A model generated the notes under the pieces. It was not told where the DNA came from, ran no database searches, and saw nothing but the letters and a program-made list of their open reading frames with translations. A DNA stretch of 35,029 nt. It comes from a virus. Position 1 is the stretch's first letter; every line of letters begins with the position of its first letter. This document shows, piece by piece, positions 3,530 through 8,738 of this stretch. Where the stretch lies: the IMG/VR virus record IMGVR_UViG_3300037502_003275, positions 1 to 35,029 of that record; one strand, 5' to 3'. Both the position numbers and the translations under genes were made by a program.

Positions 3530-3767
3530 TATCTAACTAATATTAGTTGACTACCGACCAATTAATTATATCCACTGACCAATTTTAACTGAACTAATCA
3601 CTTGTTATCCCTAGCCGCTATAGTAACTATTAAACTTTACTTTCACATAAAAAGATTTTAAAGAGAAAATAAATATTAAGTATAAGATTAATCTCCTTAA
3701 GAGAAAAACAAGAGCAAGATCAGCACTTAACTAGCTAAACTCATGCCTATAAATTTATATTTTAACT
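3530..3767. other. Intergenic region downstream of rep
   Basis: AT-rich stretch between two converging terminators. It contains a palindrome ACTAATATTAGT near 3537-3548 and two copies of GACCAATT about 22 bp apart near 3556 and 3578, each preceded by AC(C/T). Two helically phased copies could be Rep-binding iterons, but the number is too small to claim an origin. No coding frame seen. Confidence 0.4.
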
Positions 3768-3807
3768 AAAAAAGGATAACCATACCTAAAAATAGGTACA
3801 GTTATCC
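3768..3807 (-). terminator. Terminator of rep (minus strand)
   Basis: GGATAAC (3774-3780) pairs with GTTATCC (3801-3807). After a 2-nt mismatch, TACCTA (3783-3788) pairs with TAGGTA (3793-3798) around an AAAA loop. On the minus strand the hairpin is followed by six T. It lies about 80 bases after the rep stop codon. Confidence 0.8.
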
Positions 3808-3823
3808 CTTGATCTATAATTAT

Positions 3824-3855
3824 CAACCAAAAAGGGCAAATTAAACCCTTGGTTG
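3824..3855 (-). other. Second hairpin downstream of rep
   Basis: CAACCAA (3824-3830) pairs with TTGGTTG (3849-3855), and GGG (3834-3836) with CCC (3846-3848). It lacks a T run on either strand, so it is not a terminator by itself. It lies between the rep stop and the rep terminator and could stabilise the mRNA 3' end or belong to a replication site. Confidence 0.5.
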
Positions 3856-3887
3856 TTCTCATATTTTATGCATAACATCATGTAATG

Positions 3888-4997
3888 TTATCTTAAAGCT
3901 TTATTTTTACTATCTAAGAGCTGTAATAAGCAATTAACTGTATTATACTCAGAGAAGATATGAGGCTGTCTAGATAGATTCTCGACTTCCTCAAAGGAAA
4001 ATTCCGAGACTTGTCCTATCTTCTTGATTACCTTCTTAATATTCTGTTTAGTACTATCAATTCTCATATTGAATAGTATAGACTTCACTCTCTCATAAAG
4101 ATGGTGATTTTCTACTTCTTCAACAGTATCCTCTACAATGCCAATTCCTAGTTCAATAAAGTTAAAAGTTAATCTCAAGGACTTCATTAGGACACGCTTA
4201 ACCTTAGTCCAGAAGTTGTCCACTGTTTCAAAGATAACCCCTGCCATATCCTTAATCAATTCTCTAAGTTCCTTAAAGCTGACCGACTTAGTAATATTCT
4301 TTAAAGTCTGTTGTTTAATCCCACCCTTGTCTCTATTATTAGGCATATGATGCTTGTGGGCTACCAGATACCAGACCAAACGATAATGCTTAAGGTTGTA
4401 TCCTTGTAGCTTTTTAAACATTTCTAAAGGCATGATATAGCCGCCCTTACCACCTTTTAGGATAGCTTGCTTATATCCTGTTATGGTGTAAGAGCTAATA
4501 ACTTCATCACGATTGACCGAAATTAATTTAGATTCTTCTAACTTAGATATAGCTTGTACCACTTTTGAATCCGAGCTATGACCGATAAAATCAGCTATGT
4601 CCATGGTTGATAGTCCGATTACTTGTCCATGCTTAGCATGATAAGATAAGCAGTAATAGACATTGAACATAGTTTGAGTCATTTTGTAATTCCACTGTAT
4701 AGCAAATTGATATTGTAAAAATGGCATAAAGGCTCCATCTTCAACTAATTCTAGATCTGTATATTGAGTATAATCTATAGCTTCAGTTTCTTGAGTAGTT
4801 TTTGGTGATTTTTTAGCTTCCTGATCCTCTTGGATAAATTCAAGATACTCCCTAGCAACTGCTGCTAACTCTTTAGCTGCTTGAGAACTAATCCTATTCT
4901 CTTCTAGCAAAGTAGCTAATCTACCGTGAAAATTAATCAATTGCTTTTGATTATATATCTCTTTAATTTCTCTCTGTAGTTTTTCAATGATTGGCAT
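3888..4997 (-). CDS. rep: Probable plasmid replication initiator (winged-helix Rep-like)
   Basis: A 369-residue protein. The N-terminal ~70 residues are charged and helical; about 90-185 look like a winged helix-turn-helix unit (LSTMDIADFIGHSSDSKVVQAISKLEESKLI), followed by a second helical domain with a conserved-looking YNLKHYRLVWYLVAHKHH segment, and a basic helical C-terminus. The tandem DNA-binding layout is typical of theta-type plasmid initiators, but I cannot assign it to RepA_N or another named family. The main evidence is context: a long leader covered by an antisense RNA, a hairpin over the ribosome binding site, a dedicated promoter and terminator, and a nearby ParMRC locus. The ATG at 4997 has GGGGAGG eight bases upstream. 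It could instead be a DnaD-like replication protein. Confidence 0.65.
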   Translation of the reverse strand: MPIIEKLQREIKEIYNQKQLINFHGRLATLLEENRISSQAAKELAAVAREYLEFIQEDQEAKKSPKTTQETEAIDYTQYTDLELVEDGAFMPFLQYQFAIQWNYKMTQTMFNVYYCLSYHAKHGQVIGLSTMDIADFIGHSSDSKVVQAISKLEESKLISVNRDEVISSYTITGYKQAILKGGKGGYIMPLEMFKKLQGYNLKHYRLVWYLVAHKHHMPNNRDKGGIKQQTLKNITKSVSFKELRELIKDMAGVIFETVDNFWTKVKRVLMKSLRLTFNFIELGIGIVEDTVEEVENHHLYERVKSILFNMRIDSTKQNIKKVIKKIGQVSEFSFEEVENLSRQPHIFSEYNTVNCLLQLLDSKNKALR

Positions 4998-5005
4998 AAA
5001 AATAA

Positions 5006-5028
5006 CCTCCCCAGATTTTCTGAGCAGG
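5006..5028 (-). promoter_or_regulatory. Hairpin sequestering the rep ribosome binding site
   Basis: In the rep mRNA, CCTGCTCAGA (bases 5028-5019) can pair with TCTGGGGAGG (bases 5015-5006) around an AAA loop: nine of ten pairs, one of them G-U. The 3' arm contains the whole Shine-Dalgarno sequence GGGGAGG. Rep translation should therefore be closed unless the 5' arm is engaged elsewhere. Confidence 0.65.
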
Positions 5029-5099
5029 TTTCCGTTAGCTTAAATATCTGATTTTATATGTTTACTATATATTACCTTTAATTTATCTTTAAAAATACA

Positions 5100-5128
5100 T
5101 TGACAGATAAAATGAAATTATATATAAT
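5100..5128 (+). promoter_or_regulatory. Promoter of the antisense RNA in the rep leader
   Basis: Perfect consensus: TTGACA (5100-5105), 17-bp spacer, TATAAT (5123-5128), reading away from rep. Expected start near 5135. Stronger by consensus than the rep promoter, as is usual for a countertranscribed RNA. Confidence 0.85.
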
Positions 5129-5134
5129 AAACAT

Positions 5135-5231
5135 ACAATTTGATATTTAAGGTTTCAATTGGTTTGGACGCCATTTTTGGAAACCTACTTCATAGCCCTT
5201 GTGTTACCAGCACAAAGGGTTTTTTATTTTT
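5135..5231 (+). ncRNA. Antisense (countertranscribed) RNA controlling rep
   Basis: A ~95-nt RNA is bounded by a consensus promoter and an intrinsic terminator, with no coding frame. It forms a first hairpin by pairing AGGTTTC (5150-5156) with GAAACCT (5180-5186). The loop carries TTTGGACG, including a UUGG that fits the YUNR U-turn motif of many plasmid antisense loops. The second hairpin is the terminator. It lies wholly opposite the leader of rep (start near 5263, ATG at 4997). The role as copy-number inhibitor is inferred from this layout, which matches known countertranscribed-RNA plasmids. Confidence 0.75.
5196..5231 (+). terminator. Terminator of the antisense RNA
   Basis: CCCTTGTG (5196-5203) pairs with CACAAAGGG (5211-5219), with one bulged A, around a 7-nt loop. 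It is followed by TTTTTTATTTTTT. On the minus strand there is no T run after it, so rep transcripts should pass through. Confidence 0.85.
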
Positions 5232-5269
5232 TGTATGTTTTTGTTCAAAAATTAAGTAAAGTTTATCTA

Positions 5270-5298
5270 ATTATATAGCAAAAATTTCTTCTCGTCAA
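5270..5298 (-). promoter_or_regulatory. rep promoter
   Basis: On the minus strand TTGACG (bases 5298-5293), a 17-bp spacer and TATAAT (5275-5270). Transcription would start near 5263 and give a leader of about 265 nt before the rep ATG, fully covering the antisense RNA gene. Confidence 0.85.
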
Positions 5299-5357
5299 CT
5301 ATAGTATTGTTTTAAGACTAACATATGACATTCACTAATATACATGGTCATCTATGA

Positions 5358-5917: not shown

Positions 5918-6097
5918 TTAATTTTGATTTTTGCTTAGCAACCTGAAAAATAGGGTTACTAATGCAGGGAAAGCAAAAATTAAAGTTGCAGTCCAGTCTT
6001 TATCTAAGGCAGAACTTAAAGCTAACAATCCAAATACTAATTCAACAGGAATCTTAGAACCTAATTTTCTTAAAAATTTAAAAATTGATTTTATCAT
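5918..6097 (-). CDS. Small two-helix membrane protein B1 (cassette 1)
   Basis: A 59-residue protein: basic N-terminus MIKSIFKFLRKLGSKIP, hydrophobic helix VELVFGLLALSSAL, a DKDWT turn, then a second hydrophobic helix LIFAFPALVTLFFRLL and a basic tail. It is paralogous to the protein at 6721-6858; both have AL-D-(K/R)-x-W followed by (L/G)IFAF. The ATG at 6097 has no Shine-Dalgarno within 20 bases; the closest purine tract, GGGAGGGGAAA, is inside hairpin Q about 40 bases upstream. Translation may depend on coupling to A1 or on RNA rearrangement. Function unknown; holin, toxin, immunity or exclusion roles are all possible. Confidence 0.7.
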   Translation of the reverse strand: MIKSIFKFLRKLGSKIPVELVFGLLALSSALDKDWTATLIFAFPALVTLFFRLLSKNQN

Positions 6098-6098
6098 A

Positions 6099-6143
6099 TT
6101 ATTTTGATAGAATGGTTTTAGAGGCGGGAGGATTTCCCCTCCC
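6099..6143 (-). repeat. Conserved intergenic element Q, copy 1
   Basis: Directly upstream of the B1 start. It has a 20-base box, TTTTGATAGAATGGTTTTAG on the plus strand (6101-6120 area), identical in copy 2. Next to it a hairpin pairs GGGAGG (6126-6131) with CCTCCC (6138-6143). In the mRNA this reads GGGAGGGGAAAT then CCTCCC, so the purine tract is locked in a stem. Confidence 0.75.
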
Positions 6144-6150
6144 TATGTTG

Positions 6151-6858: not shown

Positions 6859-6860
6859 AA

Positions 6861-6903
6861 TGTTTTGATAGAATGGTTTTAGGTGGGAGGGTTTCCCCTC
6901 CCG
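6861..6903 (-). repeat. Conserved intergenic element Q, copy 2
   Basis: It has the same 20-base box as copy 1, followed by the hairpin GGGAGGG (6885-6891) with CCCTCCC (6896-6902) around a TTTC loop. In the mRNA it again presents GGGAGGGGAAA in the 5' arm and loop, upstream of a start codon without its own Shine-Dalgarno sequence. Confidence 0.75.
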
Positions 6904-6913
6904 ATGGTTGGGC

Positions 6914-7545: not shown

Positions 7546-7729
7546 TGTTAACATAATAAACCTATTAATATAAGCTGTTTAATTAATTTTTGTTAACAAA
7601 ATAATGAATGTTAACAAAAGTATTGATTATCTTCTAGTGTTATGTTAACATTATATATAGAAAGGTTAGTTATTGAAGGCTTTTATAGTGTTAACAAAAT
7701 AACTGACACTAAAATAATAAATGTTAACA
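7546..7729. repeat. parC-like centromere: six TGTTAACA sites upstream of parM
   Basis: The 8-bp palindrome TGTTAACA occurs at 7546, 7591, 7609, 7643, 7689 and 7722 (first base). The gaps between starts are 45, 18, 34, 46 and 33 bp. The last copy touches the parM ribosome binding site. In type II partition loci the centromere lies upstream of the actin gene and is bound by ParR, which also represses the operon; the same dual role is inferred here. The promoter itself could not be placed with confidence within the repeats. Confidence 0.75.
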
Positions 7730-7742
7730 AGGAGGAATTAGA

Positions 7743-8738
7743 ATGAAAGTAGTTCCAGTATTAGGTTGGGATAATGGTTTTGACTTTGAAAAGTTTGAGG
7801 CTGGTGAAAATAAGGTTAAATTTGTTTCTCGTACATATCAACCAAGAAAGGATAAAGTGTTTGATTTAGGCAAGTCTATTTTTAATCCTGATAATATGGT
7901 TGTGGAGTTAGATGGTAATATCTATTATGTAGGTGCTAAGGCTGACAAGCAAGCTGCAGACTCTTCTGATAGAAAGTTTAGAGATGAAAAGTTTAAAGAA
8001 GATACTGAGTTAGTTAAGTTATTGGCTGGTATAGAGTTATTATTTGGTGATGAAATAGATGGTAAAATTAGAATTGAACAATTAGGGTTAGGTCTTAACG
8101 TTGGAGCTTTTAAAAAGTATAAAGATGAAATTGTAGAGTTATATAATAATAGAACTATTAAATATCAAGCTGGAGGAAAAGAAAGAGAATTATATATAGA
8201 TAGTGTTTCTTGCTATCCTCAAGGTATTGCATCATTCTATGACGAGCTTCTTGATATGGAAGGTAATATGAAGAATGATAATTTAGCAACTGCTAGATAT
8301 GGATTAATCGATATTGGAGGAAGGACAGTAGATGCCTTTGTAGCTGATGGAATAGATGTTATTACAGATAGTGTAATTAATCTAAAAGAAGGTACTACTA
8401 ATGCTTTTAAAATAGCTAGTTCGGCTTTAGATGATATCCCTTTTGGTATTATACAAGAAGATTATCTAAAAGGGAATGATAAGACTTTCTATAATAAAGA
8501 ATATGATATTAAGAAACCTTGTGAAGATGCATTTAGAGAATTGGCTGAGAAGATATATGATGAAGTTCAGTTGGCTTGGGATGATTATATGCCAAGAGTT
8601 CAATTTATTATCTTATGTGGTGGAGGAGCTCAAAGTTTAAGAAAAGATTTAAATGACTTATTTGATAAAGATATTACAGTTATTTCAGATGCACAATTTA
8701 GTAATGCTCGTGGTTATTACAAACTAACTAAAATGTAG
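7743..8738 (+). CDS. parM: ParM-like actin-type plasmid segregation ATPase
   Basis: A 331-residue actin-fold protein. Phosphate-1 region is VLGWDNGFDF (D10 and G12), phosphate-2 is GLIDIGGRTVD (187-197), and the adenosine motif is ILCGGGAQSL (290-299). Length and motif spacing fit the ParM/StbA and Alp families, which form ATP-driven filaments that push sister plasmids apart. AAGGAGG lies just before the ATG. It directly follows the six-repeat centromere and precedes the adaptor gene, nine bases apart. It is not MreB-like (too short, no amphipathic N-terminal helix). The subfamily within ParM/Alp cannot be set by eye. Confidence 0.9.
   Translation: MKVVPVLGWDNGFDFEKFEAGENKVKFVSRTYQPRKDKVFDLGKSIFNPDNMVVELDGNIYYVGAKADKQAADSSDRKFRDEKFKEDTELVKLLAGIELLFGDEIDGKIRIEQLGLGLNVGAFKKYKDEIVELYNNRTIKYQAGGKERELYIDSVSCYPQGIASFYDELLDMEGNMKNDNLATARYGLIDIGGRTVDAFVADGIDVITDSVINLKEGTTNAFKIASSALDDIPFGIIQEDYLKGNDKTFYNKEYDIKKPCEDAFRELAEKIYDEVQLAWDDYMPRVQFIILCGGGAQSLRKDLNDLFDKDITVISDAQFSNARGYYKLTKM

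Follow-up and report, generated by a model that had tools for sequence, protein, structure and literature searches.

The leader of the replication initiator gene (rep) in the virus record analysed here is, on comparative evidence gathered in silico, a real regulatory element, and it probably works as a two-state RNA switch that is read by a counter-transcribed antisense RNA and gives negative feedback on copy number. The record, whose full 35,029 bases we call the window, carries terminase, portal and tail genes together with an actin-like partition gene (7743–8738), and appears to be a bacterial virus living as a plasmid. The antisense RNA seems to limit the copy number of this virus-plasmid by making the rep leader hide its own ribosome-binding site. 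The features concerned are collected in Table 1.

Table 1. Features of the rep gene, its leader and the opposing antisense RNA in the window.
Feature	Position	Strand	Description
rep	3888..4997	(-)	369-aa replication initiator ORF
rep mRNA leader	4998..5263	(-)	~265-266 nt; start site inferred from -10 box
SD hairpin (OFF), CCTGCTCAGAaaaTCTGGGGAGG	5006..5028	(-)	holds GGGGAGG; followed by TTATTTTT ahead of the rep ATG; terminator-like match
Element C, GGAAACCT	5026..5033	(-)	ON: pairs with A; OFF: its CCT is the anti-SD
Element B*, GATATTTAA	5040..5048	(-)	pairs with TTAAATATC of B (5142-5150); in the window minimum-energy fold
Antisense promoter, TTGACA-17-TATAAT	5100..5128	(+)	12/12 consensus match; within apical part of ON stem
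Antisense RNA, predicted	5135..5225	(+)	~91 nt; from a 5' tail through stem-loop I, whose loop is hypervariable, and a spacer to stem-loop II, the terminator
Element B	5142..5156	(-)	GAAACCT (5156-5150), which pairs locally with A, continuing into TTAAATATC, which pairs with B*
Element A, AGGTTTCC	5179..5186	(-)	upstream partner of C; pairing in the window extendable to 5189
Intrinsic terminator of antisense RNA	5195..5225	(+)	its complement forms the hairpin at the 5' end of the rep leader; other leaders keep the hairpin with changed stem sequence
rep promoter, TTGACG-17-TATAAT	5270..5298	(-)	11/12 consensus match; like promoter at the matching place in related leaders

In the proposed ON state, A would pair with C and B with B*, giving a single long nested stem that spans the antisense-promoter region; with C thus occupied, the lower SD hairpin would be open and Rep would be made. 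The level of antisense RNA would track copy number. On the way to the OFF state, the loops of the antisense RNA would make first contact with the leader, A and B would then be covered, and the CCU of the freed C would pair with the SD's AGG, so that the ribosome-binding site is hidden. Through the U-run behind the SD hairpin the OFF state may end transcription as well, and the hypervariable loop would fix incompatibility specificity. The two transcripts, their kissing contact, the repression and the effect on copy number are what we infer here.

Ten leaders of one sequence type were compared: that of the window (W) and L002, L003, L004, L008, L010, L012, L015, L150 and L155. They sit on Halanaerobiales plasmid or phage contigs, and an intact rep lies behind eight of them. 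Four belong to close relatives of the window's Rep (73–85% identical), namely L002, a second viral contig whose Rep is 84% identical to that of the window, L003 and L004, two contigs of Orenia metallireducens, and L008, from another genome of the same order. The distant Rep relatives (L009–L013 and L015) are 21–25% identical in alignment, yet L010, L012 and L015 among them have the same leader type; upstream of L013 no recognisable switch was found. A covariance model of the segment from B* to the ATG added L150, whose leader precedes a decayed rep, and L155, whose leader precedes a rep cut by masked sequence. A profile search of 398 genomes of the phylum yielded no full-length Rep outside the Halanaerobiales set, tblastn found no Rep relatives in phage and plasmid records, and the leader DNA matched neither those records nor any PLSDB plasmid. 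The leader reached the gathering score of no Rfam family; the best sub-threshold match, MicX, which scored 20 bits where the cut-off is 75, is attributed to chance. A looser DNA pattern gave more than 100 matches in viral contigs, none with a convincing A element and a start codon in place. Two contigs hold several loci of this family. One, of 108 kb (G012 contig C8), has four rep loci (L010, L013, L015, L155), one of them cut by masked sequence, with the leader switch at three of the four and differing loops. The other, of 28.2 kb (G013 contig C2), has the decayed rep of L150 behind a leader switch that still looks intact, and the intact copy L008.

All switch elements are common to the ten leaders. 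They were aligned as joined segments, as MAFFT put inserts of L004 and L015 in the wrong place when given whole leaders, and in this alignment A:C is paired in every leader (100% of cells). Seven of its eight pairs are invariant and by themselves carry no covariation signal, but at one position U-A has become C-G by a double change in both L010 and L155. The whole-leader tree joins as sisters L010 with the window (97/95) and L155 with L015 (100/100), and given these separate nearest leaders the changes represent two independent events. Element B keeps its GAAAC in L010 and L155, so that A:B is worsened there while A:C is still perfect. The comparison thus speaks for selection on A:C, with A:B a secondary, less constrained pairing. 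The earlier note had placed A (5186-5179), GAAACCT (5156-5150), C (5033-5026) and the SD hairpin (5028-5006) on the minus strand, all of them exactly, and had given A two alternative partners; the distant one is conserved and covaries, whereas the local GAAACCT is the weaker and did not follow the compensatory changes.

The other helices are nearly as well kept. B:B*, nested inside A:C, is paired in 95.6% of cells across the ten leaders, and the SD hairpin in 96%, with a compensatory change from G-C to A-U in L003 and L004. Two further leaders, L009 and L011, have other sequences with the same A/C/SD logic (AGGCCTCT/AGAGGCCT and AGGGAGGCC/GGCCTCCCT, each against a GGGAGG SD), the upstream element, middle element and SD forming a mutually exclusive trio. 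When the leader upstream of C was shuffled 20,000 times with dinucleotides preserved, a perfect 8-nt partner of the anti-SD arm fell within the antisense-covered stretch in 49 cases and the three-way arrangement arose in none, by criteria chosen after the sequence was seen; conservation in ten leaders is the stronger test.

The predicted fold of the leader is bistable. The window leader up to the ATG has the ON fold as its free minimum (-63.5 kcal/mol), with A:C extended to 11 pairs, and forcing the SD hairpin gives a best fold of -62.5 kcal/mol, a gap of about 1; adding 27 nt of coding sequence makes the minimum OFF-like. With energies so close, the outcome is probably set by folding kinetics. 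The equilibrium probability of A:C is 0.27 in the window, 0.02–0.19 in L008, L010 and L150, and 0.02–0.99 across the ten, and the SD hairpin of L009 and L011 predominates even without blocking, so that the ON state in such leaders would be kinetic or helped. Blocking the antisense-covered stretch raises the probability of C pairing with the SD to 0.95–1.0 in all ten leaders. The circuit logic proposed in the earlier note is supported computationally, both by the conservation and covariation of A:C and by the pairing of C with the SD once the antisense-covered stretch is masked.

The SD hairpin could serve mainly as a terminator, with A as a pre-emptor and antisense binding halting transcription before rep, which is how pT181 operates (PMC5703833); there too the 5' arm of the ribosome-site hairpin is paired with the pre-emptor until the antisense RNA releases it (PMC5703833), although pT181 mainly terminates transcription and its initiator is a rolling-circle Rep_trans protein. 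A U-rich run follows the hairpin in all ten leaders and the window hairpin gives a terminator-like match, as attenuation would require. However, the SD lies in the hairpin itself, its stem has a G.G mismatch and a U-G pair, and the U-run is interrupted (TTATTTTT), and we consider attenuation alone unlikely. Dual control, as proposed for pSA564, would account for both the SD-hiding and the terminator-like features.

The promoters agree with the earlier note, which described a leader of ~265 nt with a consensus antisense promoter opposite it. Most related leaders have TTGACA with a TATCAT-like -10 box as the antisense promoter; in L150, where rep is decayed, no clear one was found. The predicted 91-nt antisense RNA folds into a hairpin and a terminator hairpin (z = -2.6 against shuffles) and has 15 unpaired nt at its 5' end, and its counterparts in related leaders are predicted at about 84–122 nt. 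The loop of stem-loop I is only 45% identical between leaders, against 96–97% for A and C, a hypervariability that fits what is expected of a specificity determinant. Where replicons share a cell the loops differ in five of five pairs, too few for a test of avoidance. An inverted repeat makes up the tip of the ON stem in the window (5130-5142) and in related leaders (in L003, GTATCTATATGATACCATATAGATAC); the antisense promoter sits within it, and it could double as a protein-binding site.

The two promoters are convergent and about 140 bp apart, and the antisense one is the closer to consensus, an arrangement under which antisense transcription might act mainly by interfering with that of rep, the pairings being incidental. 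The compensatory changes in A:C, the conserved SD hairpin and the hypervariable loop nevertheless require RNAs that pair, which leaves interference very improbable as the main mode of action.

The earlier note had likened the system to the pseudoknot-controlled IncI/IncB plasmids. In the IncI, IncB and IncL/M systems control involves a pseudoknot and in several of them leader-peptide translation too (works cited in PMC10724649). The window leader resembles them in a general way, with an antisense RNA governing access to the hidden SD of a plasmid initiator and a long leader, but a design of that type, in which a leader loop forms a pseudoknot with a site adjoining the SD, coupled to leader-peptide translation, is the least probable of the alternatives and the comparison does not hold: A:C and B:B* are nested, the ten leaders show no consistent complement of either loop between -70 and +12 of the SD, and no pseudoknot or conserved leader ORF is seen (11 of 12 leaders have no ORF of at least 8 codons with an SD-like sequence, the single one, a TTG ORF, being confined to L015).

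By analogy, the best match to the leader switch is instead the GG-up/CC-mid/GG-down switch of the staphylococcal plasmids pSK1, pSK41 and pSA564, a precedent that the earlier note had missed along with B:B* and the U-run, and hence dual control of termination and translation. The pSA564 leader adopts a 46-bp ON stem or, alternatively, a terminator-like OFF hairpin that hides the SD (PMC8129170), and its GG-up, CC-mid and GG-down correspond one to one to A, C and SD of the window. Three likenesses extend to the group as a whole. First, the counter-transcript (RNAI or RNA1 in the staphylococcal plasmids) has a length below about 100 nt, that of pSK41 being 83 nt, and is complementary to the leader ahead of the translation start (PMC8129170, PMC5703833). 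Second, it has a single-stranded 5' tail and two stem-loops, the 3' one also being the terminator. Third, a nested long ON stem excludes an SD-hiding, terminator-like OFF hairpin with a U-run. In the pSA564 antisense RNA the second of the two stem-loops, which has CGCCAA as its kissing loop, is also the terminator. The design was tested genetically, mutations altering both copy number and the RepA level (PMC8129170). The same CGCCAA is read in the antisense loop of L008, L012, L015 and L009 (leader loop TTGGCG); the mRNA loop of the window is CUGGUAA and not UUGGCG.

The differences lie in the initiator and the setting: the staphylococcal initiators are RepA_N proteins, whereas the window Rep has no RepA_N match and a predicted RepE/pi-like fold, and its system is phage-borne in Halanaerobiales hosts. 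The control thus appears to work like that of pSK41 without being filed there, because the initiator differs. Neither RepA_N (PF06970) nor the Rep_3 family (PF01051) was found in the window Rep at E-values up to 10, or in 11 relatives at 0.01. In an AlphaFold2 model (pLDDT 80, pTM 0.60), residues 85–282 align with RepE54, pi and Rep–DUE complexes over 177–185 residues (VIA Z 8.7–9.0, rmsd 4.0–4.6 Å), and RepE54 and pi make up the top rows of the VIA matches; Foldseek gave RepE/pi structures E-values of only 0.007 and above. A RepE/pi-like two-winged-helix fold is accordingly predicted for these residues, a Z of about 9 being moderate and speaking to fold only. RepA_N structures were absent among the structural matches, an absence that by itself means nothing. 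Beside rep, no repeat array of iterons was detected between 3400 and 6500, where diverged iterons could escape detection.

The kind of control is therefore already known, and what is new is the host group (Halanaerobiales, relatives of Orenia), the initiator and the phage setting. A review found pSK41-like RNA control not apparent in RepA_N plasmids outside the staphylococci (PMC5703833), and the literature searched yielded no paper on plasmid replication in Halanaerobiales. If the proposed reading is true, a pSK41-like design works far from the staphylococci, with another initiator fold and in a phage apparently persisting as a plasmid; the leaders would be a natural series, with switch elements, specificity loops and initiators each varying on their own; and a source of incompatibility groups in Halanaerobiales would be at hand. 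More tentatively, and at somewhat less than an even chance, the leader switch may be a portable module, one RNA design ruling initiator families that are unrelated, those of phage-plasmids among them: it is kept before initiators only 22–25% identical to one another, is wholly rewritten in sequence with its logic intact in L009 and L011, and would have arisen independently of the staphylococcal RepA_N system or been exchanged with it.

Several other parts of the window deserve mention. Directly 3' of rep lies a non-coding stretch of ~310 bp (3570-3870), 72–80% conserved with L002, L003, L004 and L008, with a near-invariant block at 3644-3687 and an inverted repeat (GGATAAC...GTTATCC) at about 3774-3808; this is a candidate replication origin. 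Upstream of the actin-like partition gene are six TGTTAACA sites (7546-7729), GTTAACA occurring only twice elsewhere in the window, and this array is a likely centromere (parC-like). The segments 6090-6150 and 6860-6910 nearly duplicate each other (TTTTGATAGAATGGTTTTAG.GG.GGGAGG.TTTCCCCTCCC) and are adjoined by small minus-strand ORFs. Finally, the product of 320-1408 is a stand-alone match to the N-terminal domain of type I restriction HsdR (PF04313, E 1.7e-11).
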